From a virus, in the IMG/VR virus record IMGVR_UViG_3300030399_000044, positions 1 to 39,456 of that record: a stretch of DNA of 39,456 bases. One strand, given 5' to 3'. This document shows positions 750 to 38,173 of the stretch, one piece after another. The position numbers and the translations under genes are program-made. Position 1 is the stretch's first letter, and each line of letters starts with the position of its first letter. The notes under the pieces were generated by a model, which was not told the DNA's origin, searched no databases, and saw nothing but the letters and a program-made list of their open reading frames with translations.

Positions 750-998
750 TTATTTTAATAATTTCTTCGGACTACTGGAAGCTAATAACTTACCGCTCTG
801 TTCTCCGTAAAATGGAATAAATGGTTCCTGGTTAGTTAAAATAGAATATTGCATTTCAGATTTTAAGCCAGAGATAACTGTTTCACTCATTTTAGCAACA
901 GTTGAGGCTTCTGATATATCCATCTTGCCTGATTCTAAATCATCCATTGCTTGTAATACTCTATCTCTCAACATCTTCATGCTCGTTATTTTTGTCAT
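750..998 (-). CDS. Hypothetical phage protein, 82 aa
   Basis: Start ATG at 998 is preceded on the minus strand by a good Shine-Dalgarno (GAGAGGATGA). The N-terminal half is an amphipathic helical segment (LRDRVLQAMDDLESGKMDI) followed by EASTVAKMSETVISGLKSEM, a pattern common in small phage proteins of unknown function that carry a predicted helical bundle. The C-terminus is Ser/Lys-rich. The first 38 bp overlap the end of the 243-aa gene, typical of dense phage operons. Confidence 0.75.
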   Translation of the reverse strand: MTKITSMKMLRDRVLQAMDDLESGKMDISEASTVAKMSETVISGLKSEMQYSILTNQEPFIPFYGEQSGKLLASSSPKKLLK

Positions 999-1692
999 TC
1001 ATCCTCTCCCAATAATTAACTCTAATTTGTTTTACTCTGTCAGGATTTTTCTTGCGCCATTCTGCTGCTTTAGTTAGCACATAATCCTTATTGTTTTTAT
1101 AATAATTCTGGGAAACATCTTTCCTACACGCCTTGCATTTATAAGAATAATCCCCCTTAGCTTTCTTATAGTTTTTAATCACACCATTAATAAAAAGATC
1201 CCCATGCTTTCCACATTTAACTAATGGGGCTTTTAATCTAATTGCTTCCTCCTTTTTCTCTTGGTTCATCTTAAAGAAAATTTCTTTTTGAGATGCAATC
1301 ATTCTTTGTAATCTAATTAATGCTCTTTTAAATTGCAGAACTTCTGTTGGGATGGAGGTTCGATATTTATATTTTAATGGACCTTTTAATGAAATTCCCT
1401 TGGTGAGTTCATCTCTGACAATAAAATCCCAGAGGTCTCTTTCTGGATTTCTTTTGCTATATCTCTTGGCAGATTGTTGTTGCCATCGCTGATATTTTTT
1501 TATTCTTTGCTTTTCGTTATTAGCGTACATACGCTCTAATTTCTTATCCGCCTTATCACATTGTTTTTTACAATCTACACAATAACGATAGCCACGAGAA
1601 CTATATTCATAAGAATAAGGGTAATCAGCTATAACCATACCTTTTATTCTATGGCCATTACACTTTCTTCTGGTGTCGTCAGACATGCTCAT
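961..1692 (-). CDS. Cysteine-rich (zinc-finger-like) protein, 243 aa
   Basis: Two Cys clusters are visible: CVDCKKQC near residues 38-45 and a C-terminal CGKHG ... CKAC pair (about residues 160-190). Between them is a long basic helical region. The C-terminal segment (CKACRKDVSQNYYKNN ... AAEWRKKNPDRVKQIR) resembles the zinc-binding part of phage HNH-type proteins, but I do not see the HNH catalytic DH..N..H pattern, so nuclease activity is not claimed. It may be a degenerate homing endonuclease or a DNA-binding zinc protein. No convincing Shine-Dalgarno is seen; the start lies just upstream of the stop of the 113-aa gene, suggesting coupling. Confidence 0.65.
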   Translation of the reverse strand: MSMSDDTRRKCNGHRIKGMVIADYPYSYEYSSRGYRYCVDCKKQCDKADKKLERMYANNEKQRIKKYQRWQQQSAKRYSKRNPERDLWDFIVRDELTKGISLKGPLKYKYRTSIPTEVLQFKRALIRLQRMIASQKEIFFKMNQEKKEEAIRLKAPLVKCGKHGDLFINGVIKNYKKAKGDYSYKCKACRKDVSQNYYKNNKDYVLTKAAEWRKKNPDRVKQIRVNYWERMNDKNNEHEDVER

Positions 1693-2020
1693 AATAAGGT
1701 TGATTCATTATTGCTTTTAGGGTTACCAAATGTTTTCGCATCTGCTTAGCTAATTCTCTAGCTGCAACATATTTTGATGAGTAAATCTCATTTTCATAAT
1801 AAAGCTTCTTCTCTTCTGCCAGCATTCCTCTGTTTATTAAATATACAAAGTTATCAAACTGTAAGGGATGCTCGATGCCGATATATAAGATATATCCAGA
1901 CATTAATATAGGTTTTGCTGTAGTCCAATCGATCACATAGATAGATTGGCCTAAATTAAATGAAGCTGTCCTTCTGACAACTTCATCTTTTGATAGACCA
2001 ACGATCGTTAATTTCTGCAT
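1679..2020 (-). CDS. Hypothetical protein, 113 aa, first gene of minus operon
   Basis: No family recognised. The N-terminal half looks beta-rich (MQKLTIVGL, SIYVIDWTT, GYILYIGIE), the C-terminal half helical and basic (EIYSSKYVAARELAKQMRKH). It is the promoter-proximal gene of the minus operon that runs through the circle join to 39125. A GGGATGG sequence precedes the ATG. A TATAAA box lies about 30 bp upstream, but I could not identify a matching -35. Confidence 0.7.
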   Translation of the reverse strand: MQKLTIVGLSKDEVVRRTASFNLGQSIYVIDWTTAKPILMSGYILYIGIEHPLQFDNFVYLINRGMLAEEKKLYYENEIYSSKYVAARELAKQMRKHLVTLKAIMNQPYYEHV

Positions 2021-2139: not shown

Positions 2140-2156
2140 CACACTGAGAGTATAAT
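2127..2156 (+). promoter_or_regulatory. Candidate coat-gene promoter
   Basis: TATAAT (2151-2156, perfect -10) is preceded at 18 bp by TTGCAT (2127-2132, weak -35). Transcription would start near 2162-2164, exactly where the repeated ACGATG and the first leader hairpin begin. The weak -35 and its overlap with an inverted repeat suggest an activated or repressed promoter. Confidence 0.5.
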
Positions 2157-2161
2157 AATTG

Positions 2162-2273
2162 TACGATGCGACAGGAAAGCTTCGTCGTCTTTCCAAGATT
2201 TGATCAACGATGTGACAGCTTTGGGTAGCCCCTTCGTCTACCGCACGATGCAGGAAGCTCCTTCGTCTTCCAA
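2162..2273 (+). ncRNA. Structured coat leader: three hairpins with a shared 9-nt loop pattern
   Basis: Three hairpins occur in a row. H1: GGAAAG 2174-2179 with CTTTCC 2189-2194. H2: GGTAG 2224-2228 with CTACC 2238-2242. H3: GGAAG 2253-2257 with CTTCC 2267-2271. Every loop is 9 nt: CTTCGTCGT, CCCCTTCGT, CTCCTTCGT. Each hairpin is preceded by ACGATG (2163, 2207, 2245). Stem bases change together while pairing is kept (H2 versus H1/H3), a mark of RNA structure under selection. The leader ends 53 nt before the coat start. No family known to me matches; cis-regulation of coat translation or stability is the natural reading. Confidence 0.6.
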
Positions 2274-2326
2274 GAGAAATCGGCAAGCCATTTATGGCTT
2301 TTACTTATTCTTTTGGAGACGACACT

Positions 2327-3574
2327 ATGTCATTTTCAGGCAATTCTTTCAGTACAACTCAATATATTCTAGACGAAACATTTGTACGATTTGTGAACTA
2401 CCTCGCATTTGCTAAAGTTGCTAATCGCAACCTTGAAGGCGATTTCAAAGGCTTAAAATATGCAACTGGCCAGACTATCAACTATCGCTTAGAAGAAAGA
2501 TACCTCGGCGGCTATGGCGCTACAGCTACATCCGAAGCCCGTGTCCAGGTTGTCCGCCCTCTTACGATTGATACTCAGTTTCATACGATGGTGGAATTCA
2601 CCGGGTTTGAACTGACCTTTGATCGTGCGCGCGACCAGCCGTATTTAGACATGATGCTTAATCCCCGTGCGAAACGTTTGGCAAACATGGTTGAGCAGTT
2701 TATCGCTACTACCAACTTCCAGACCCAGGTATATCAGGCATATGGCTCACCCGGCGTAGCAATCGACTTTAATACCGTACTGCAGACAGATGCTTACATG
2801 ACGCAGCTAGGTATTCCCGAGGATGGCAATCGCTATTGGGCTAACCCTCCGGCAGTAAGTGCAACTCTGACAAACGACTTGTACACCGTGTTCAACATGA
2901 CGGTAAACCGTGGTGCGTTGTTAGATGGTTTCATCGGGCATCTTTCCGGCTTTGATTTCTTCAAGACTAACTTCTTGCAGAGACAAGTTGCTGGTACGCC
3001 TGGCGCAACTGGTGGTACGCCTCCGACTGGTTATGTGGCAGCTGGTACAGTTACCAATGGCCCGATCACTGGTGGAAATACCATTGTTCTGACTGGTTTG
3101 GGTGCTGGCGTAGTGTTCCAGGAAGGTGACATTTTGACCCTGGATGCTGCTGCAAATGTGTTCATGGTTAATCCTTTGACCTACGAACCTTTGGCCCAAA
3201 CAGCTCAGTTTGTCGTAACTGCTCCTGTTACTTCAAGCGGTGGCAATGCGACTTTTTTGGTAAACCCAACCATCGTAATTAGTGGTGCGCGTCAGAATAT
3301 CTCTAACGCCATTCCTAACGGTGCGCAAGTTTATGCCGCCACCTCTCACAATGTCTCTATGGCTTTCCATAACCAAGCAATTGTGTTTGCAGCTCCTCCT
3401 CTCAAGGAATTGAAAGGTGGTGTTGAGGCAGTAACTTCTTACAGTGATCTGTACAAATTGGCTATGACTTACTCTCTTGGTGCTGATATCCGCAATTATG
3501 TCCAGCTAGATCGTATCGACATTATTGCTGGTGTGGCAATCAATCCAGAGTTTGCAGTAGTTGTAATGTCCTAG
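2327..3574 (+). CDS. Major capsid (coat) protein, P22 gp5-like
   Basis: Builds the procapsid shell around the scaffold and matures to the DNA-filled head. The 415-aa length is close to P22 coat (430 aa). The N-terminal part with many aromatic and charged residues, the DRARDQPYLDMML segment, the GDILTL stretch in the middle, and the late VSMAFHNQAIVFAAPPL motif fit the P22 coat family. Residues roughly 220-330 are Gly/Thr/Ala/Val-rich and could be the inserted (I-domain-like) region. I chose ATG 2327, which has GGAG at 2315-2318 with 8-bp spacing, over an in-frame ATG at 2294 without a site. It follows the structured leader and is closed by a terminator at 3588. Confidence 0.88.
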   Translation: MSFSGNSFSTTQYILDETFVRFVNYLAFAKVANRNLEGDFKGLKYATGQTINYRLEERYLGGYGATATSEARVQVVRPLTIDTQFHTMVEFTGFELTFDRARDQPYLDMMLNPRAKRLANMVEQFIATTNFQTQVYQAYGSPGVAIDFNTVLQTDAYMTQLGIPEDGNRYWANPPAVSATLTNDLYTVFNMTVNRGALLDGFIGHLSGFDFFKTNFLQRQVAGTPGATGGTPPTGYVAAGTVTNGPITGGNTIVLTGLGAGVVFQEGDILTLDAAANVFMVNPLTYEPLAQTAQFVVTAPVTSSGGNATFLVNPTIVISGARQNISNAIPNGAQVYAATSHNVSMAFHNQAIVFAAPPLKELKGGVEAVTSYSDLYKLAMTYSLGADIRNYVQLDRIDIIAGVAINPEFAVVVMS

Positions 3575-4668: not shown

Positions 4669-5445
4669 ATGCCAATAACTAAACCATTAAAAGATAAATT
4701 GAATGGTTTTAAAGTAATAAAAGATCTTGGAAGAGAAGAAAATGGCATGAGATATGCCTTAGTAAATTGTAAAGAATGCGGAAATGAATTTAAAACTAGT
4801 GTCTATCATATTAATACAATAGACAGTTGCGGTTGCCTCCCATGTAGGCCTGCAAAAATTCTTCCGAAAAATATAAACGGATTTAGGATTTTGAAAGATT
4901 TTGGATACAGCAATGGAAGTAGAAGAGCATTAGTTATATGTAAGGTTTGTGAGAAAGAATACGAGGTAGATCCGAATAAGCTCAAGTATAGACATCATTG
5001 CGGTTGCTTGAGAAGAGGCGTGATTGCATGTAAATATGCAAAATCGCATCCAAGGCTTACTCAGATTTATAAACACATGATGGCTAGATGTTATAGAAAG
5101 AATAGCCAAGATTATTATTTATACGGTGAAAGAGGAATAATAATTTGCAAGGAATGGCTTAAAGATAGAAACGAATTTTGTAAATGGTCTTTAAAGAATG
5201 GATATAGGGATGATTTAACAATAGATAGAATAGATAGTAATGATAACTATGAACCTGATAATTGTAGATGGTCTAATTCGGCGACACAGGCCAGAAATAC
5301 TAGTAGAAACGTTTTAACAATGGAAAAGGCTAAAAAAATGAGGAAACAACATGCTACTCATTTAAAATTGATGGCTAGAAATTATAGAGTAAGCTTAGCC
5401 ACTGTGTATAATGTTATTAATAGGAAATCTTGGATCAAAGCATGA
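4669..5445 (+). CDS. HNH homing endonuclease with zinc fingers, 258 aa
   Basis: A selfish DNA nuclease, not needed for virion function. N-terminal half: two related Cys modules, CKECG ... CGC (about residues 36-56) and CKVCEKEY ... CGC (about 100-118). The C-terminal HNH/AP2-type core contains YLYGERGIIICKEWL, then LTIDRIDSNDNYEPDNCRW (about 183-201), the hallmark of this family. A C-terminal HTH-like tail (MARNYRVSLATVYNVINRK) probably reads the target. It sits in the gp4-gp10 junction; its TGA overlaps the ATG of the gp10-like gene (ATGA). A second member of the same family is at 10853. Confidence 0.88.
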   Translation: MPITKPLKDKLNGFKVIKDLGREENGMRYALVNCKECGNEFKTSVYHINTIDSCGCLPCRPAKILPKNINGFRILKDFGYSNGSRRALVICKVCEKEYEVDPNKLKYRHHCGCLRRGVIACKYAKSHPRLTQIYKHMMARCYRKNSQDYYLYGERGIIICKEWLKDRNEFCKWSLKNGYRDDLTIDRIDSNDNYEPDNCRWSNSATQARNTSRNVLTMEKAKKMRKQHATHLKLMARNYRVSLATVYNVINRKSWIKA

Positions 5446-9571: not shown

Positions 9572-10853
9572 AGCTAATCTTGAAGAATATGGATTGATTC
9601 CAGTTAAACAGACCAAACCAGATTTGAAATCATTTGGCCTAATCCCTATTGGTCAAAATAACGAATCCGAAGATAGTAATTTAGGGAATGTTGCTAAAAG
9701 TTTAAGTTTGATTCCTGAGCCTGCTATGAAAGTGGGTCAAATGTTCAAAGGCCCTGTTTCACAAATTGCACAAGATGCATGGGGAATGGCCAAAGAAGCT
9801 CCCAGCGCTGTTATGCGCGGAATAACAAATATTCCTAAAGATATTGAATACCTGCGTAAAAATATCCCAGAAGCAGCTTCACAAATATATCATCAACCAA
9901 CAAGAGCAGCTAAAAACGCAGCTGCTGGCGGATTAGAATTAGGTGGAGAAATATCAAGAATACCGCCAGGAATCGCTAAATATTTAGCGCATATTGGCGC
10001 TATTAAGCCAGAAACAGCAGCGAAAATGCCCCAACCATTTAGTTCGCAAGAAGTAAGCAAATTTGGTGATGAATTGGTTGGTGGAAATCAGCAACCAGGA
10101 GATGAATTGATCAGAGGTGCAGTCAGAAATGCGCCGAGTTTATATGGCGTTGGAAAAGTTGCAGAAGCTCTTAATCCTATGCAACTAACCGCTGGTGGAA
10201 TAACTAAGCGCGTGCTAAATGCGCGAAAAAATGCCAAGCAAGAATATTCTGGGGAGTCGGGTCACTATAAGACTTTGTTCAATGATGCCAGAAAAGAAGG
10301 ATTAGGAAATTTTGATAATTTAGCAAAAGAAGAATCGGATATATCTAGATTAAAAAAACACACGCCCTCTCGAATGATGGAATCTATAGAAAAATTTTAT
10401 GAAAACCCATCTCATGAGGCGGGTCAAACCGCTATTAAAGATTTAGGCTTTATTATAAGGCCATTAGAAAATAGAGGATCATTACCTAGCTGGCAAACAA
10501 AACAGCTCGAAGCTGCACAGAGAACTAAAAGAAATATACAAAAAACTATGTTTTCTGATAAGAAAGGCGATATAAACCAAGAATTTTCAGGAAGACATAA
10601 TCTTATTCAAACTGGTTACGCAACAGATGTTGTGCCATATACTACAAATGCTGCAATTAATGCGTATAGAAAAGGCGATTTAAAGAAAGCTGAATTGATA
10701 GATAAATTATCTACTGGTAAATTTGCAGCACGTAAAGGATCTGCGCATCCTCAAATAGCAATTAGAAAAGCAGGGAAAGATTTGATTGGTAATAAATTAG
10801 GATACGGTGCCATTGGGGCATTGATGACAAAATTATTAAGTGGCGGATCATAA
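9564..10853 (+). CDS. Probable internal/ejection protein, 429 aa
   Basis: Begins with a duplicated short motif, LEEYGLIPVK then LKSFGLIPIG (residues about 5-32). This is followed by a long helical protein rich in Ala, Lys and Gly, with a segment of small and hydrophobic residues around 115-150 (AAKNAAAGGLELGGEISRIP) and another close to the C-terminus (GYGAIGALMTKLLSGG). It is the third of three consecutive candidate ejection proteins. Its stop overlaps the ATG of the second HNH gene (TAATG). Role as DNA-ejection protein is by position and composition; no enzymatic motif seen. Confidence 0.65.
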   Translation: MAEANLEEYGLIPVKQTKPDLKSFGLIPIGQNNESEDSNLGNVAKSLSLIPEPAMKVGQMFKGPVSQIAQDAWGMAKEAPSAVMRGITNIPKDIEYLRKNIPEAASQIYHQPTRAAKNAAAGGLELGGEISRIPPGIAKYLAHIGAIKPETAAKMPQPFSSQEVSKFGDELVGGNQQPGDELIRGAVRNAPSLYGVGKVAEALNPMQLTAGGITKRVLNARKNAKQEYSGESGHYKTLFNDARKEGLGNFDNLAKEESDISRLKKHTPSRMMESIEKFYENPSHEAGQTAIKDLGFIIRPLENRGSLPSWQTKQLEAAQRTKRNIQKTMFSDKKGDINQEFSGRHNLIQTGYATDVVPYTTNAAINAYRKGDLKKAELIDKLSTGKFAARKGSAHPQIAIRKAGKDLIGNKLGYGAIGALMTKLLSGGS

Positions 10854-11476
10854 TGCCTAAATTGAAGAATTATACAGGAGAGGTTTTTGGTATCTTTAAA
10901 GTGATTAAAGATTTAGGATTGCATTATCCCACTAAAAAAAGCAGCAAAAAGCAAAGATATATGATTGCTGAATGTATTAAATGTGGGATAAGCAGGGAAT
11001 TTATGCTCCCTTCATTAAGGAATAAACTAACAAAATGTGAATGCCAGTATAAACCATTAGTCACTAAAGAATGGTTAAGGTGTTATAAAATACATCATGG
11101 CATGACATTAAGATGCTATAACAAAAAAAATAAGGATTACTCAAGATATGGAGGAAAAGGAATATTTATATGCAAAGAATGGATAAATAATCCAAAAGAT
11201 TTTTATGAATGGGCCATTAAAAATGGATACCACAATAATCTTTCTATTGATCGAATAGATAATAATAAAGGATATTCTCCAGAGAATTGCAGATGGGCAA
11301 CAAAAGAAGAACAACAACAAAATAAAAGTTGCTCTACACCTATAGAAAAAATTAGACAAGTAAAGGAATTGTTAAAGCAAGATATAACAATGGCAGAAGT
11401 AGCGCGATTAGTTAATATAGAATATACAATCGTAAAAAGAATAAATCATAAAAGAAGTTGGAATAATGTGAATTAG
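10853..11476 (+). CDS. HNH homing endonuclease, 207 aa
   Basis: Same family as the gene at 4669, shorter: one N-terminal Cys module (CIKCG ... CECQ, about residues 42-64), core YSRYGGKGIFICKEW and LSIDRIDNNKGYSPENCRW (about 134-152), then a C-terminal HTH-like segment (DITMAEVARLVNIEYTIVKR). The start overlaps the stop of the 429-aa gene and the stop lies 10 bp before the next start, so the element sits precisely in a gene junction without breaking a gene. The two copies share motifs but differ widely, so they are separate acquisitions or an old duplication. Confidence 0.88.
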   Translation: MPKLKNYTGEVFGIFKVIKDLGLHYPTKKSSKKQRYMIAECIKCGISREFMLPSLRNKLTKCECQYKPLVTKEWLRCYKIHHGMTLRCYNKKNKDYSRYGGKGIFICKEWINNPKDFYEWAIKNGYHNNLSIDRIDNNKGYSPENCRWATKEEQQQNKSCSTPIEKIRQVKELLKQDITMAEVARLVNIEYTIVKRINHKRSWNNVN

Positions 11477-14875: not shown

Positions 14876-17800
14876 ATGGCAATTACCTCTATTCAGAGAG
14901 ATACGAATAACAATGTTTGCTTTGTTAGGATAATATCCACGGACAATTTAGCAACTATTTCTAGTGCGAACTATATATCATTGCAACAGAATAATATTAA
15001 TGTCCTGAATGGCGGCCCTTTTGCTTGGTTCATCTCTGATATGATTCTTTGTTCTGCCAGTGATGCGGTTGGTCTTTTTGAATTCACGGATGCTACATTT
15101 AAAACATTAGAGCAGTATGGCTCATCTAATATTGTTAACCCTGGTGTGACAAATGAAATAGCTTATTATTCGTCATCAACCACTGTTTCTGGATTGGCCA
15201 ATCTTGCTAATGCAGTCCTAGCCACTAATGGTTCATCTATTCCTGCCATGGTTACGACATTACCCGCTCTAGTTCAAACTAATATCACTAAGTTAGGAAT
15301 TGTAACAACGGGAACGTGGCAAGGAACTCCTGTTGCCGTATCATATGGTGGGACTGGGGAATCAACTTTCACTCCCTACAGTATCATAGCTGGCGGGATT
15401 ACTTCGACGGGTAATTTTCAGAATGTATCAGGATTAGGAACATCTGGATTTGTTCTAACCTCCACTGGTGCTGGCTCATTGCCAACATGGCAAATATCTG
15501 CTGGGAGCGGTACGGTTGATACCGGGACAGCAAATGCGATCGCTTATTATCCTGCAGCGACTAAGGAAGTTTCGCCATTAACTACGATGGCATCTGCCAC
15601 GCTTATTACATCTGGTTTGGGTGTTCCTTCTTTATCGCAGACATTACCTACAGCTGTTCAAGCAAATATCACTCAGTTAGGAACACAAAGCCAAGCTCTC
15701 AATATGGGTAGCAATCAGATAAATAATCTAGCTAATCCCACAAGCCCGCAAGATGCAGCGACAATGGCTTATGTGAATTCGGTTACAGGGATAAACCAAG
15801 TAGAAGGTGTTTACGCAGCATCTACAGCTAATTTAACGGGATATACCTATCTCAATGGCGCGGCGGGAATTGGTGCCACTCTTACTGCGGCATCGACGGG
15901 CGTTTTTACCGTGGATGGAGTGACGCTTGTTGCTGGGCAGCGTTTTCTCTATAAAAATGATTCAACCTATGCTGGCGTTGCTAATGGTATTTATATCGTA
16001 ACTACAAGTTCCGGCGGCACAAATGCAGTTTTGACTCGTTCAAGTGATTACGATACCCCAGGGGACATTCAACCTGGCGATATTGTTGCCGTCACCAATG
16101 GCACAGTAAACGGCGGATCAATATGGGTTCAGACAGCCACAGTCGTTACAATTGGCGTCAGTCCTATAGCTTTCAGCATATTCTTTAATCCGGCAGCCTT
16201 TGTCTCGAGTACATTGGCAAATGGAACTATTTTTATCGGTAACGCTTCCAATGTAGCCACTCAGTCAACAAGCACATGGCCAGCAACGACCACGATTAAC
16301 CAAATTTTATACAGTTCAGCAGCAAATACTGTGACTGGCCTTGCAAGTGCCGCGAATTCTGTTTTAGCTACGAATGGCAGTTCGGTGCCGGCCTTTACTA
16401 CTTCGCTACCCACAGCTGTTCAAGTGGCCGTAGGAAGCTTAAATAGCGGTACAAGCGCAACATCTAGTACATTCTGGCGTGGAGATGGTACTTGGGCAGT
16501 TACTCCGGCTCCTACCGGGCAGGCTCTTACAGAATCGAATGACACTAACGTCACACTCACATTAGGCGGGTCGCCTACTACGGCATTATTGGCGGCTACT
16601 TCTATAACTGCTGGCTGGACGGGCCAATTAGCTGTAGGAAGGGGTGGTACAGGTTTGGCTGCTTTAACTCAATATTATACCTTAGTCGGCGCTGGCAGTA
16701 GTGCAGTAAGCTTAATAGCGCCCTCGGCAACCGCTGGCATACCTTTTATATCTGGTGGCTCATCTGCTAATCCTAGCTTTGGTACCGCTGTAGTAGCTGG
16801 GGGTGGAACAGGCAATACGACATTCACGGCCTATAGTGTTCTGTGTGCTGGTATAACGGCCACAGGGGCTTTCCAGAACGTATCCGGTACAGGGACAACA
16901 GGTTATGTCCTCACGGCTAACAATGGCGCTTTACCCACGTGGCAAGCTCCTACGGGTAGCGGAACGGTCAATAGTGGAACTGCTCAGCAATTAGCCTACT
17001 ATGCGACAAGCACAACGGCTGTCAGTGGTCTCACAACGACTTCTAATGCAGTCTTAACTTCTCCATCAGGTACTTTGACATGGGCCGCTCAATTGGGTCT
17101 CTCCTTAGGAGGCACTAATGCCAACCTCACAGCATCTAATGGCGGCATTGTCTGGTCTAACACTAGTCAATTGCAGATACTGGCAGGCACAGCTACAGCG
17201 GGACAGTTATTGCTTTCTGGAGCATCTGGATCGCCTTCATGGTCTACAAGCACCTATCCTGCAACTAATGCTGTGAATACCCTGCTTTATGCCAGCAGCT
17301 CAAATGTAATGGCGGGATTGGCGACGGCTAACAATGGTGTTCTAGTTACTTCCTCTGGTGGTGTGCCTTCCTGGCTAGCCAATGGCACTACTGGTCAGGT
17401 ACTAACGGCAACAACTTCGGGAACCCCATCATGGGCTACTCCATCAAGCACAAAAACCGCTCCTGCACCGACCGTTTACACTTCTGGATCTGGAACATAT
17501 ACCACACCCGTGGGAGCTTTATATTTGCGTGTGTTAGGAAAAGCTGGGGGCGGAGGCGGTGGTGGTGGTCTGTCCACTGGTGGTTCTGGTGGTTCAGAAG
17601 GTGGTTATTTTGAAAAGATCGTTACAAGTCCATCTGCTACCTATGCTTATGCTGTTGGGCCTGGTGGCGCTGGCGGTACATCTGGTGCAAATGGTAGTAT
17701 CGGCACGAATACTACTTTTGGAACATCTTTTTTATTAGCTATTGCCGGAGGCGGGGGAGCCTATGGCAATCCTCCAGGTGCTGCGGGAGGGGCATCGGGG

Positions 17801-18019
17801 GGAGATATTAATATACAAGGCGCTCCTGGCGGTAATATATTTTACAATGGCACTAACTTCCCGCCTGGAAGCGGTGGTGGTCAAGGCGGTGGTGTAAGTT
17901 CATTTATGAGTGTAACTGGCAATGCTGGTGTAAATGGTGGTGGAGGTGCCGGTGGCTTAAATGCTGCTGGTGGCGCAGGCGGCGCAGGATACATTTACGT
18001 TATAGCTTACTATCAATAA
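14876..18019 (+). CDS. Large tail fibre with glycine-rich tip, 1047 aa
   Basis: Residues 1-85 form an N-terminal anchor (MAITSIQRDTNNNVCFVRI ... DMILCSASDAVGL) also present at the start of the gene at 31298. Residues about 90-850 hold many degenerate repeats of the form 'A.AYY.S.TT.V.GL...ANAVL.TNGS..P...T.LP' and 'SYGGTG...FT.YS...GGIT.TG.FQNVSG'. From about 885 the protein becomes very Gly-rich, with runs of GG/GGG alternating with short loops. That composition resembles the polyglycine-II tip of S16/T2 gp38-type adhesins that contact the host receptor. Good AGGAG site precedes ATG 14876. Confidence 0.85.
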   Translation: MAITSIQRDTNNNVCFVRIISTDNLATISSANYISLQQNNINVLNGGPFAWFISDMILCSASDAVGLFEFTDATFKTLEQYGSSNIVNPGVTNEIAYYSSSTTVSGLANLANAVLATNGSSIPAMVTTLPALVQTNITKLGIVTTGTWQGTPVAVSYGGTGESTFTPYSIIAGGITSTGNFQNVSGLGTSGFVLTSTGAGSLPTWQISAGSGTVDTGTANAIAYYPAATKEVSPLTTMASATLITSGLGVPSLSQTLPTAVQANITQLGTQSQALNMGSNQINNLANPTSPQDAATMAYVNSVTGINQVEGVYAASTANLTGYTYLNGAAGIGATLTAASTGVFTVDGVTLVAGQRFLYKNDSTYAGVANGIYIVTTSSGGTNAVLTRSSDYDTPGDIQPGDIVAVTNGTVNGGSIWVQTATVVTIGVSPIAFSIFFNPAAFVSSTLANGTIFIGNASNVATQSTSTWPATTTINQILYSSAANTVTGLASAANSVLATNGSSVPAFTTSLPTAVQVAVGSLNSGTSATSSTFWRGDGTWAVTPAPTGQALTESNDTNVTLTLGGSPTTALLAATSITAGWTGQLAVGRGGTGLAALTQYYTLVGAGSSAVSLIAPSATAGIPFISGGSSANPSFGTAVVAGGGTGNTTFTAYSVLCAGITATGAFQNVSGTGTTGYVLTANNGALPTWQAPTGSGTVNSGTAQQLAYYATSTTAVSGLTTTSNAVLTSPSGTLTWAAQLGLSLGGTNANLTASNGGIVWSNTSQLQILAGTATAGQLLLSGASGSPSWSTSTYPATNAVNTLLYASSSNVMAGLATANNGVLVTSSGGVPSWLANGTTGQVLTATTSGTPSWATPSSTKTAPAPTVYTSGSGTYTTPVGALYLRVLGKAGGGGGGGGLSTGGSGGSEGGYFEKIVTSPSATYAYAVGPGGAGGTSGANGSIGTNTTFGTSFLLAIAGGGGAYGNPPGAAGGASGGDINIQGAPGGNIFYNGTNFPPGSGGGQGGGVSSFMSVTGNAGVNGGGGAGGLNAAGGAGGAGYIYVIAYYQ

Positions 18020-28832: not shown

Positions 28833-28984
28833 AATTTCAGCCACCAAGAATTATGATCTTGCTTTTTATCACGACATTGCTCATAATTAAGACAATATAT
28901 GATTACAAACACAACAACTCTAGTGCTGCTTTGAATGATGCTTACCAAGCAGGACAGATGATTTTAGCTGAGGATGGCAAATGA
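28829..28984 (+). CDS. Small membrane protein of the lysis cassette, 51 aa
   Basis: MKFQPPR, a transmembrane helix (IMILLFITTLLIIK), then a hydrophilic tail (YDYKHNNSSAALNDAYQAG). One N-terminal membrane segment with an outside tail is compatible with an inner-membrane spanin fragment or pinholin-like protein. Overlaps both neighbours (ATGA). Role inferred from its place behind the lysozyme. Confidence 0.6.
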   Translation: MKFQPPRIMILLFITTLLIIKTIYDYKHNNSSAALNDAYQAGQMILAEDGK

Positions 28985-30357
28985 TTGATGTGGAAAACCT
29001 TAAAATAGAATATAAAGATATTTCTGTTTTAATACCCTACCAGGATAATTCAAGAACACACTCAGAAGACCAAGTAAAAGAGATAATAGATTCTATCAAA
29101 CGCCGAGGCTGGACAAATCCAATTCTAACGGATGGCCAAAATGGCATAGTAGCAGGGCATGGTCGATTACTTGCTGCACAAAAACTTGGCCTAAAAAGAG
29201 TTCCAACAATTGATCTTTCCTTCGCTAGTGAAGCTGACAAAATAGAATACATTATAGAAGATAACAAGCTCGCGCTTAATGCTGGCTGGGATTATGGCAT
29301 TCTTAAACTACAATTCGATTTGCTCGAAGATGCTGGATTAGACCTGAAAAACACCGGATTCCATAAAGATGAATTGAAAGAAATTCGCAATGTAAATACC
29401 TTCAGGGAAGATTTATGCGATGAAGATGAGGTTCCCACTGTTCCCACTGTTCCCGTTTCTAAACTTGGTGATATATGGATACTTGGCAATCATCGCCTTA
29501 TGTGCGGTGATAGCACTATGCTGGATCAAGTTGAAAAGCTCATGAATGGTGAAAAGGCCGAGATACTAATCACTTCACCGCCTTATTCAGATATGCGCGA
29601 ATATTCAGGAAACGATATTTCTTTGGATGTTATTACAAGTATATTTAAATCTTTTTATCAGCAAGCGAATTTTTATGTAATCAATTTAGGGTTGCAATAT
29701 AAGAATCATGAAATTAATCCATATTGGAATTCGTGGGTGAAATCAGCTACGGATATTGGTTTAAAATTGTTAGCTTGGAATGTATGGGATAAAATACAAG
29801 CCGGAAGTATTAGCAATCAATCGCAAATGTTCGCATTAAGCCATGAATGGATTTTTGTTTTTGGCGAAAAACCCAAACAATTAAACCGTATTTGGGAAAA
29901 ATCGGAAAACTCAGAAAAAAGGCAAAAATATTTTAAAGTTAATGATAAGGGTCAGAAAGTCCGATCAGTTCGACAAACGGACGGGTCAATGGATTTTAGC
30001 TCTTATGGTCGTGATTACGAATCAAAAAATATGGGTTCTGTAATAACTCAATTTAGCGAGCAAGAAAGAACAATAAATCATCCGGCAAAATATCCTGTAG
30101 GATTGCCTGAACCTTATATAGAATCAATGACGAATGAAAATGATATTGTCATTGACTGTTTTGGCGGTTCAGGCTCAACCCTCATAGCTTGCGAAAAGAC
30201 AAACCGAAAATGCTTTATGATGGAAATATCCCCTGCGTATATTTCAGTTATAATCCGGCGTTATTGTAAATTCACTGGTAAAGATGCTATATTGGAAAGC
30301 ACTGGAAAAACCTTTAAGTCTTTAGAGAATGAAAAAGAATTGCTTGCAATGCAATAA
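28981..30357 (+). CDS. DNA methyltransferase with N-terminal ParB domain, 458 aa
   Basis: Residues 1-115 are a ParB/sulfiredoxin-type domain (IVAGHGRLLAAQKLGLKRVP). A typical linker (LGDIWILGNHRLMCGDST) follows, then the catalytic TSPPY (about 198-202) and, near the end, the AdoMet-binding DCFGGSGSTLIACEKTNR (about 392-409). The motif order (TSPPY first, FGGSG second) marks a beta-class N4-cytosine or N6-adenine methyltransferase. It would protect phage DNA from host restriction or mark it for regulation. No cognate restriction gene is present; the adjacent HNH is of homing type. Confidence 0.88.
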   Translation: MIDVENLKIEYKDISVLIPYQDNSRTHSEDQVKEIIDSIKRRGWTNPILTDGQNGIVAGHGRLLAAQKLGLKRVPTIDLSFASEADKIEYIIEDNKLALNAGWDYGILKLQFDLLEDAGLDLKNTGFHKDELKEIRNVNTFREDLCDEDEVPTVPTVPVSKLGDIWILGNHRLMCGDSTMLDQVEKLMNGEKAEILITSPPYSDMREYSGNDISLDVITSIFKSFYQQANFYVINLGLQYKNHEINPYWNSWVKSATDIGLKLLAWNVWDKIQAGSISNQSQMFALSHEWIFVFGEKPKQLNRIWEKSENSEKRQKYFKVNDKGQKVRSVRQTDGSMDFSSYGRDYESKNMGSVITQFSEQERTINHPAKYPVGLPEPYIESMTNENDIVIDCFGGSGSTLIACEKTNRKCFMMEISPAYISVIIRRYCKFTGKDAILESTGKTFKSLENEKELLAMQ

Positions 30358-37054: not shown

Positions 37055-37975
37055 ATGAGCGGAGAAGTCAGAAACGTTGATGCCCTAATAGTGGCAGATA
37101 TGCAAAATCAGCAAGCGCCCGTGCAAGCAATACCTAATGCTCCAATAGAATCAGCGCCAGTACAGCAAGATTCGGTCGCCGAAGTTCCACATGGAACCTT
37201 AGATAGCTCAGAAAATGAACATACTAATGACAATGTAAATCAAGTTCAACCTGATGCCAATGTGACTCAAGAACCTACCAAATCAGTAGAAACCAGTAGT
37301 AAATCGGTAGATTCCCCTATTGACGAGTATGGCAATCCTATTGATGCTCCAAAAATGTACAGTGAAGAAGATGTCTCTAGGATGATTAGGGATCGCCTAT
37401 CGCGTGGTCGCCATGCTGAACAGCCAACCCAGCAACAAGTCCAGAAAGCAGCTGACGACTTCAAGACTGACCCCAATAGCGAGGAATCATGGGAAACCCA
37501 GTTAGAGGGTTTCATCGATAAGACACTAGAGAAACGCCAGTCGAAGCAAGCTGAGCAGCAATGGAAGCAGCAGGAAGCAGCCAAGCAAGCCGAATTTGAG
37601 GCTAAGTTTTCGACTGGCATGAATAAGTACCAGGATTTTCACAAGGTCATAGACCCTGTTAGGAACAATATCACTGATTCCATGATGCTCGCGGCGCGCA
37701 ATCTGGATAACCCAGCGGCTTTTATCTATGGCGCAGCTAAGCTTCACCCCCAGGAATTGGATAGGATATCGAGAATAGCAGATCCTTACGCACAGGCCTC
37801 AGAAGTGGGCAGACTGCATGAGCGCATGGTTAAGTCCAGAAGTGGCCTTAGCGCGGCTCCTAAGCCTCTGGAAGCGGTTAAAGGGGATGTTACTAACAAG
37901 CGTATGGATGACAGGCCATCTATTGATAACCTAATAGCCCAACATGCTAAGCAAAAGCAAAACGCTAGAAGATAG
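37055..37975 (+). CDS. Scaffolding protein, P22 gp8-like, 306 aa
   Basis: Guides coat assembly and leaves the procapsid before maturation. Length equals P22 gp8 (303 aa). Acidic, disordered N-terminus (first 100 residues, Gln/Asp/Val/Pro-rich), helical Gln/Lys-rich middle (EQQWKQQEAAKQAEFEAKF), and a basic C-terminus (LIAQHAKQKQNARR) matching the coat-binding helix-turn-helix end of gp8. AAGG precedes the ATG, 12 bp after portal. Confidence 0.82.
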   Translation: MSGEVRNVDALIVADMQNQQAPVQAIPNAPIESAPVQQDSVAEVPHGTLDSSENEHTNDNVNQVQPDANVTQEPTKSVETSSKSVDSPIDEYGNPIDAPKMYSEEDVSRMIRDRLSRGRHAEQPTQQQVQKAADDFKTDPNSEESWETQLEGFIDKTLEKRQSKQAEQQWKQQEAAKQAEFEAKFSTGMNKYQDFHKVIDPVRNNITDSMMLAARNLDNPAAFIYGAAKLHPQELDRISRIADPYAQASEVGRLHERMVKSRSGLSAAPKPLEAVKGDVTNKRMDDRPSIDNLIAQHAKQKQNARR

Positions 37976-38017
37976 GATAAAAAGAGTACATAATGTTATT
38001 TATTTGGGAGAGATACA

Positions 38018-38173
38018 ATGCCAATACCCGGTGATAATGGAAAACCAGCTTTAGAGAAGAAAGAACAGGAAAATCGAATAACAGATGTAGCCAATCATGA
38101 TGCCTGTGTTCAGAAAGAAGTCATGCTTAATAAGCCAGCATCGAAAGAAAAATGTATTTTTGGAGAAATATAA
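38018..38173 (+). CDS. Small hypothetical protein, 51 aa
   Basis: MPIPGDNGKPALEKKEQEN, C-terminal KEKCIFGEI. GGGAGAG precedes the ATG. The last 63 bp (38111-38173) are repeated, 83% identical (52/63), at 38212-38274 in the following frame. Unknown function. Confidence 0.55.
   Translation: MPIPGDNGKPALEKKEQENRITDVANHDACVQKEVMLNKPASKEKCIFGEI

Follow-up and report, generated by a model that had tools for sequence, protein, structure and literature searches.

Tandem pseudoknots in the coat gene leader of an uncultured clade of P22-like phages, and a possible switch at the coat ribosome-binding site

Introduction

Coat protein is the main product of a phage-infected cell, and its supply must match that of scaffold and portal. 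To our knowledge, control of coat synthesis at the RNA level is little described in tailed DNA phages. Among phage translational operators is the leader pseudoknot of T4 gene 32; like the coat leader considered here, operators of this type are leader RNA structures that can set the amount of one structural or DNA-binding protein, but they lack its permuted pseudoknots in tandem, a feature kept across an entire clade. The preQ1, SAM-II, and guanidine-III riboswitches are translational riboswitches with H-type pseudoknot aptamers, and share with the coat leader a short pseudoknot, a few invariant residues, and a strand in common with a Shine-Dalgarno helix. The coat leader differs in having no loop between the 3′ strands of its two helices (a′ and b′), a second loop (L2) of 2–4 nt, and open ends where a long loop is usual, that is, a permuted H-type arrangement; it also has no match in Rfam, and precedes a phage coat gene rather than a gene of metabolism.

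Two further systems share the position of the element. The putL RNA of phage HK022 is ~70 nt long, consists of two stem-loops just past its promoter, and acts without a protein partner (PMC9378689). Both put RNAs (putL and putR) resemble the coat leader as ~70-nt tandem folded units, cis-acting and promoter-proximal, at or near the start of a phage transcript (PMC9378689), but their units are two stem-loops, the first of which contains a triplex in its stem; they occur on early transcripts, where RNA polymerase reads them, and as described in that paper they have neither an a/a′ pseudoknot nor a helix to the ribosome-binding site. Stem-loops at the 5′ end stabilize some bacterial mRNAs, for example ompA and papA, and the Bacillus RppH requires at least two unpaired 5′ nucleotides (PMC3997798). 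The ompA, papA, and aprE leaders are like the coat leader in placing a base-paired 5′ end on an abundant mRNA (PMC3997798); unlike it, they are simple hairpins and have neither tandem pseudoknots nor a second, alternative fold.

The coat leader in the window

The window is the whole 39,456-nt stretch analyzed, IMG/VR virus record IMGVR_UViG_3300030399_000044. A plus-strand gene at 2327–3574 encodes a P22-like major coat protein of 415 aa (PHROG 283, major head protein, E = 6.6e-39) with hundreds of relatives, in the P22 gene order portal-scaffold-coat; the portal matches phrog_156, and the scaffold is named by position, without a profile match. Upstream of the coat gene are the –10 box of a predicted promoter (TATAAT, 2151–2156, plus strand), for which no good –35 box was found, and a Shine-Dalgarno sequence, GGAG (2315–2318, plus strand), 8 nt before the start codon. 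The plus-strand structural operon runs from the coat gene (2327) to ~18019, with minus-strand genes thereafter. It includes two HNH endonuclease genes between structural genes (4669–5445 and 10853–11476, plus strand) and a gene for a 1047-aa tail-related protein (14876–18019); elsewhere in the window, a ParB-like nuclease domain is fused to a DNA methyltransferase (28981–30357, plus strand; phrog_498, E = 2.4e-105, and phrog_620).

The original prediction placed three tandem hairpins with similar loops between the –10 box and the coat gene, each preceded by ACGATG, and all of these parts are present: stems GGAAAG/CTTTCC (2174/2189), GGTAG/CTACC (2224/2238), and GGAAG/CTTCC (2253/2267); 9-nt loops CTTCGTCGT, CCCCTTCGT, and CTCCTTCGT; and ACGATG at 2163, 2207, and 2245. 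The element also lies where it was expected to, at the predicted 5′ end of the coat transcript: the TATAAT box would place +1 at ~2163, in the ACGATG of the first unit.

The units are nevertheless not plain hairpins. ACGA(TG) is complementary to the (CG)TCGT of the loop that follows it, as ACGATG/CGTCGT in unit 1 and ACGA/TCGT in units 2 and 3. Because leader word and loop word are mutual complements, each unit is, from its sequence, an H-type pseudoknot of the form a-L1-b-L2-a′-b′, with a′ running directly into b′. The reading as a repeated RNA element stands, that as plain hairpins does not, and the shared leader and loop words, though present in the window, are not conserved motifs: they are the two strands of one helix, free to vary in relatives as long as they stay paired.

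Unit 1 (2163–2194, plus strand; alignment A3) is made up of a ACGATG (2163–2168), L1 CGACA, b GGAAAG (2174–2179), L2 CTT, a′ CGTCGT (2183–2188), and b′ CTTTCC (2189–2194). Unit 2 (2207–2242, plus strand) comprises a ACGA (2207–2210), extending to ACGATG if a U.U mismatch is permitted, b GGTAG (2224–2228), a′ TCGT (2234–2237), and b′ CTACC (2238–2242). In alignment with relatives it is the homolog of their first unit, and it is near-identical to ACGAAG.CGTAGGTTATA.GGTAG.TCC.CTTCGT.CTGCC in L018. Unit 3 (2245–2271, plus strand) has a ACGA (2245–2248), L1 TGCA, b GGAAG (2253–2257), a′ TCGT (2263–2266), and b′ CTTCC (2267–2271), the last an anti-Shine-Dalgarno sequence; it aligns over the second unit of relatives. 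Unit 1 is thus an extra one compared with most relatives, by alignment with the nearest of them, and three-unit leaders are also found elsewhere (L039/L122). Between units 1 and 2, AAGATTTGATCA (2195–2206, plus strand) occupies the aligned place of the –10 box in relatives; it may be a degenerate second copy of the promoter region, such as a duplication of promoter plus unit 1 would leave behind.

A detector demanding the a/a′ and b/b′ helices, with no sequence core, finds all three units in 2160–2326. Three were reached in none of 1000 dinucleotide shuffles of the window leader, and this is the only 167-nt tile with three units in the whole window, both strands included. Nested folding of the leader gave a different structure and missed every unit, since its energy model excludes pseudoknots.

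Distribution and design of the units in related phages

Scans of IMG/VR yielded many relatives whose coats are 73–91% identical; a second set, grouped around L083, has 83–96% identity to the L083 coat. Upstream sequence was inspected over 230 nt for the first 30 relatives and over 200 nt for a further 47. Nearly all of those with intact upstream sequence have two, sometimes three, units between the –10 box and the coat start. The usual layout is a –10 box, 5–7 nt, and two tandem units of the form a(3–6)-NGUA-...-b(3–7)-(N)C-a′-b′-A, for example AAGTG.CGTAGTAAA.GACAG.CCC.CACTT.CTGTC or, in L025, GGCG.TGTAAC.GTCT.AC.CGCC.GGAC. The first pseudoknot strand most often begins 5–6 nt after the –10 hexamer (55 of 98), so that strand a of the first unit coincides with the predicted transcription start; in the window the spacing is 6 nt.

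With a strict detector that includes the GTA core, applied to 136 distinct upstream regions, units were found in 114 leaders, against ~8 expected: 61 leaders have two, 53 have one, and 22 have none, where shuffles gave 0.1, 8.2, and 127.7. Among the 22 are three unrelated outgroup coats, the window itself, one leader separated from its coat gene by intron-like sequence (L090, on a contig shared with L007), and relaxed variants visibly like the design, with CGAA (L087) or AGCA (L095) in place of the core. In L007, intron-like sequence separates leader from coat match at ~4740–5000; the L017 coat gene has a group I intron at about codon 30 (1750–1961, plus strand; Rfam RF00028, 86.8 bits); and coat matches in L021 and L070 are split near codons 23–30, with the same GATATAGTC mark.

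The conserved residues, G|NGUA and C|C, flank the a/a′ helix. When the detector does not require the core, GTA is still at the same position in 91 of 138 units. In a set of 166 units, a C precedes a′ in all 166 and is the first base of a′ in 165, neither being demanded by the detector. L1 is 4–11 nt in nearly all units and opens with NGUA, while L2 is mostly 2–4 nt. With no gap between a′ and b′, the helices could stack along this one continuous strand, with L2 crossing the deep groove of a/a′ and L1 spanning the stack; the unit would then be the usual H-type pseudoknot in permuted form.

In relatives a scaffold-like gene lies 163–4400 nt upstream of the coat gene on the same strand, placing promoter and leader, as predicted from sequence, between scaffold and coat throughout the clade. 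This variable stretch holds tRNA genes in L051 (4380–4527, minus strand) and L016 (2925–2997, plus strand). An int-alpA RNA (Rfam RF02996, above gathering score) occurs ~50–115 nt upstream of the coat leader, on the opposite strand, in L205 (2335–2382, minus), L018 (973–1040, minus), and L210 (2737–2804, minus); none was seen in the window. In the isolate phages with the nearest coats (VvAW1, P26218, 1.211.A, and CV-1-33), which are ~26–27% identical, the coat gene begins 6–30 nt behind the scaffold gene, without a leader.

One relative, L083 (contig BMAG01000039.1), lies in the single-cell genome BBSC-SA01, classified as a soil Legionellales bacterium (PMC7453286); the Legionellales, whose phages are poorly known, are a candidate host group.

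In 2.9 million viral contigs, three unit-specific patterns matched 26, 33, and 11 times, 70 in all. Sixty-nine are directly upstream of, and in like direction to, a P22-like coat gene of this clade; for the seventieth, the stored sequence stops at the match and shows nothing of what follows. The tie to the coat gene that had been proposed holds in 69 of the 69 matches with downstream sequence. The earlier statement that no described family has this form also agrees with the searches made. Against Rfam 15 the window has no match at gathering score and the leader none up to E 10; L005 at loose thresholds gave only sub-threshold chance matches, and the leaders of 24 further loci no match to the element. 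Megablast against phage records gave no match, and no description of such a motif was found in the open-access literature. To judge from these comparisons, the element matches none of the known RNA families searched.

Covariation and covariance model

Pairing was assessed on an alignment of 50 non-redundant leaders (A2). The a/a′ cells of the two pseudoknot helices are paired in 98.8% and 97.0% of cases, and eight of the nine pseudoknot pairs vary on both sides, the ninth being an invariant G-C; these counts lean toward the structure, the rows having been picked by a detector requiring pairing and GTA, and are inflated by kinship, related sequences not being independent. The structure as a whole is 81.6% paired, compared with 36–45% when slid by 1–3 columns, and none of 500 shuffles was as high. 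Compensatory changes that keep the stems, which the original prediction called for, are thus seen across relatives, and within the clade neither same-coat relatives that lack the units nor stem breaks without compensation were seen.

Support free of the choice of rows comes from the detection rate relative to shuffles, the C|C residues, and a covariance model built on the nested pairs only (R1). R1 recovers leaders on which it was not trained (L246, at 2e-10, L269, L265, L258, L007, and L010). It does not match L243–L245. In the records of 21 relatives (36–40 kb) it has exactly one strong match each, at the coat leader, and no second strong copy elsewhere; over 185 genomes of one bacterial class it returned only the already known phage contig. 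Two weak matches in the window (993–1133, minus strand, and 37896–38023, plus strand) rest on start-site letters and were discarded.

R1 does not match the window leader. As in the family, there are at least two a-L1-b-L2-a′-b′ units upstream of a P22-like coat gene (here three), the first strand a follows the –10 box by 5–7 nt, and the last b′ can also pair beside the Shine-Dalgarno sequence (UUCCAAGAGAA with UUCUUUUGGAG). Missing is the combination of NGUA directly after a with C|C at the L2/a′ border: the window reads CGAC, TGAC, and CAGG after strand a (or TGCG, TGTG, and TGCA), and the GUA core is lost from all three units. Near relatives of the window are relaxed too, with CGAA in L004 and AGCA and TGAA in L012. 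By position, pairing, and the alternative helix, the window copy is a diverged three-unit member of the predicted family that fails in one defining feature.

An alternative helix at the ribosome-binding site

In the window, UUCCAAGAGAA (2268–2278) can pair with UUCUUUUGGAG (2308–2318) in an alternative helix, P3 (2268–2318, plus strand), with a predicted fold of –20.9 kcal/mol for 2267–2335. It overlaps b′ of unit 3 and buries the GGAG of the Shine-Dalgarno sequence; since both use b′, the last pseudoknot and P3 are mutually exclusive. P3 is capped by an inner hairpin, P4 (AAGCCA/UGGCUU, 2285–2300, plus strand), which is likewise predicted and covaries in relatives, where 75% of cells are paired and all four pairs show double changes. 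P4 was rejected as a terminator or attenuator: it has 6 pairs, 3 of them G-C, and a poor T run, and P3 encloses it without competition.

A homologous P3 helix covaries in relatives. As in the window, the last b′ has an alternative partner, a stretch (P3′) that immediately precedes or touches the Shine-Dalgarno sequence, with b/b′/P3′ reading for example GTCT/GGAC/ATTTGTTC-GTCAGGGAG in L241, TGCTG/CAGCA/TTGCTG-GAG in L102, TAACTG/CAGTTG/ATAACTG-GAG in L118, and GTCG/CGAC/TTGTCG in L116. When each leader is given its own P3′, the b′/P3′ helix scores at least 7 in 46 of 71; over 500 swaps of partners the mean is 23.9 and the maximum 32. In alignment A2, pairing of the P3 columns reaches 78%. The figure is 74% for shuffles, of which 2 in 500 do as well, and 34–61% when slid, so that covariation is weaker than in the pseudoknots.

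In minimum-energy nested folds of 50 leaders, b′ pairs with downstream sequence in 49 and within the b hairpin in none, as would be expected of a switch, the other state being a pseudoknot that nested folding cannot score. With the last pseudoknot folded, the Shine-Dalgarno sequence is predicted to be more open in 25 of 49 leaders and less so in 8; the window GGAG is predicted to be paired either way. P3′ ends 1–8 nt before the Shine-Dalgarno sequence in many relatives, so that sequestration would be partial and the direction of the switch not uniform. A hairpin with the Shine-Dalgarno sequence in its loop, scoring at least 7, occurs in 35% of leaders (vs. 2.5%), and by inspection its 5′ arm is often P3′. 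A putative sensor and expression platform with a common switching strand, as in a translational riboswitch, are both present, b′ being part of the last pseudoknot and of P3.

Discussion

Comparison among relatives establishes the predicted structure, its conservation, its place, and the strand b′ common to two helices. From these we infer a direction of effect, a ligand, and translation as the controlled step: the leader would be a cis-acting, 5′-terminal RNA switch for coat translation, a reading given a probability of about one half. The transcript would open, from its predicted +1, with two tandem pseudoknots (three in the window) acting as the sensor, and b′/P3 would be the switching element. 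A trans-acting factor, or folding kinetics, would choose between the last pseudoknot and P3 and so set coat translation. With the last pseudoknot held, b′ would be withheld and the ribosome site more open; with it opened, P3 would be paired, in the window together with the GGAG itself. Binding of a protein or of the ribosome, as was first suggested, may be involved. Among ligands, a protein of virion assembly (either free coat or scaffold) would make the most sense, since it would link coat supply to assembly, and the like cores of the tandem units suggest the same ligand for each. With its first nucleotides held in a helix, the mRNA might also be expected to undergo slower 5′-end-dependent decay.

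That last effect could conceivably be the whole function, the tandem pseudoknots shielding an abundant mRNA from decay of the RppH, RNase E, or RNase J type, with neither switching nor ligand. Strand a of unit 1 is at the predicted +1, and only the coat gene, the most demanded product, carries the element, as such shielding would have it. Plain hairpins suffice for this task, however, and it leaves unexplained the invariant GUA and CC residues, the repetition of units, and the conserved competition between b′ and P3′ at the ribosome site; the idea deserves to be taken seriously, but is probably wrong.

A second alternative, an antiterminator like put, is unlikely. RNA polymerase, bound by the nascent element, would then pass over the pauses or terminators of the structural operon. 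With a total length similar to that of putL and a start at the predicted +1 ahead of a plus-strand structural operon, two units would suit such a role. Terminator-like sites downstream are nevertheless not in excess (16 found, 13.4 expected), the element is absent from the other operons of these phages, P3 at the Shine-Dalgarno sequence is left unexplained, and the text of PMC9378689 on putRNA makes no mention of a pseudoknot.

Compact pseudoknots with a few invariant nucleotides also resemble self-cleaving RNAs, but a ribozyme or leader processing site is very improbable given that no Rfam ribozyme was matched and that a single gene would have no need of two or three such copies in tandem. 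That the repeats, which adjoin a promoter, act as DNA (an operator or packaging site) with incidental stems is scarcely credible when helix sequence is free and complementarity kept, pseudoknot register included, and when the two units of a single genome have different helices, since a DNA site would conserve sequence.

More tentatively, and with the odds against it, the leader might represent a new class of regulatory RNA: a sensor of tandem permuted H-type pseudoknots at the first nucleotides of a viral mRNA, reading capsid assembly through free coat, scaffold, or another ligand, and coupled by strand exchange to the coat ribosome-binding site. A structured, strongly covarying leader is present in nearly all of a large uncultured phage clade, beside the coat gene only; its invariant nucleotides point to a specific binding partner, and one of its strands is shared with the ribosome site. 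So short and modular an element could yield a new aptamer-like module.
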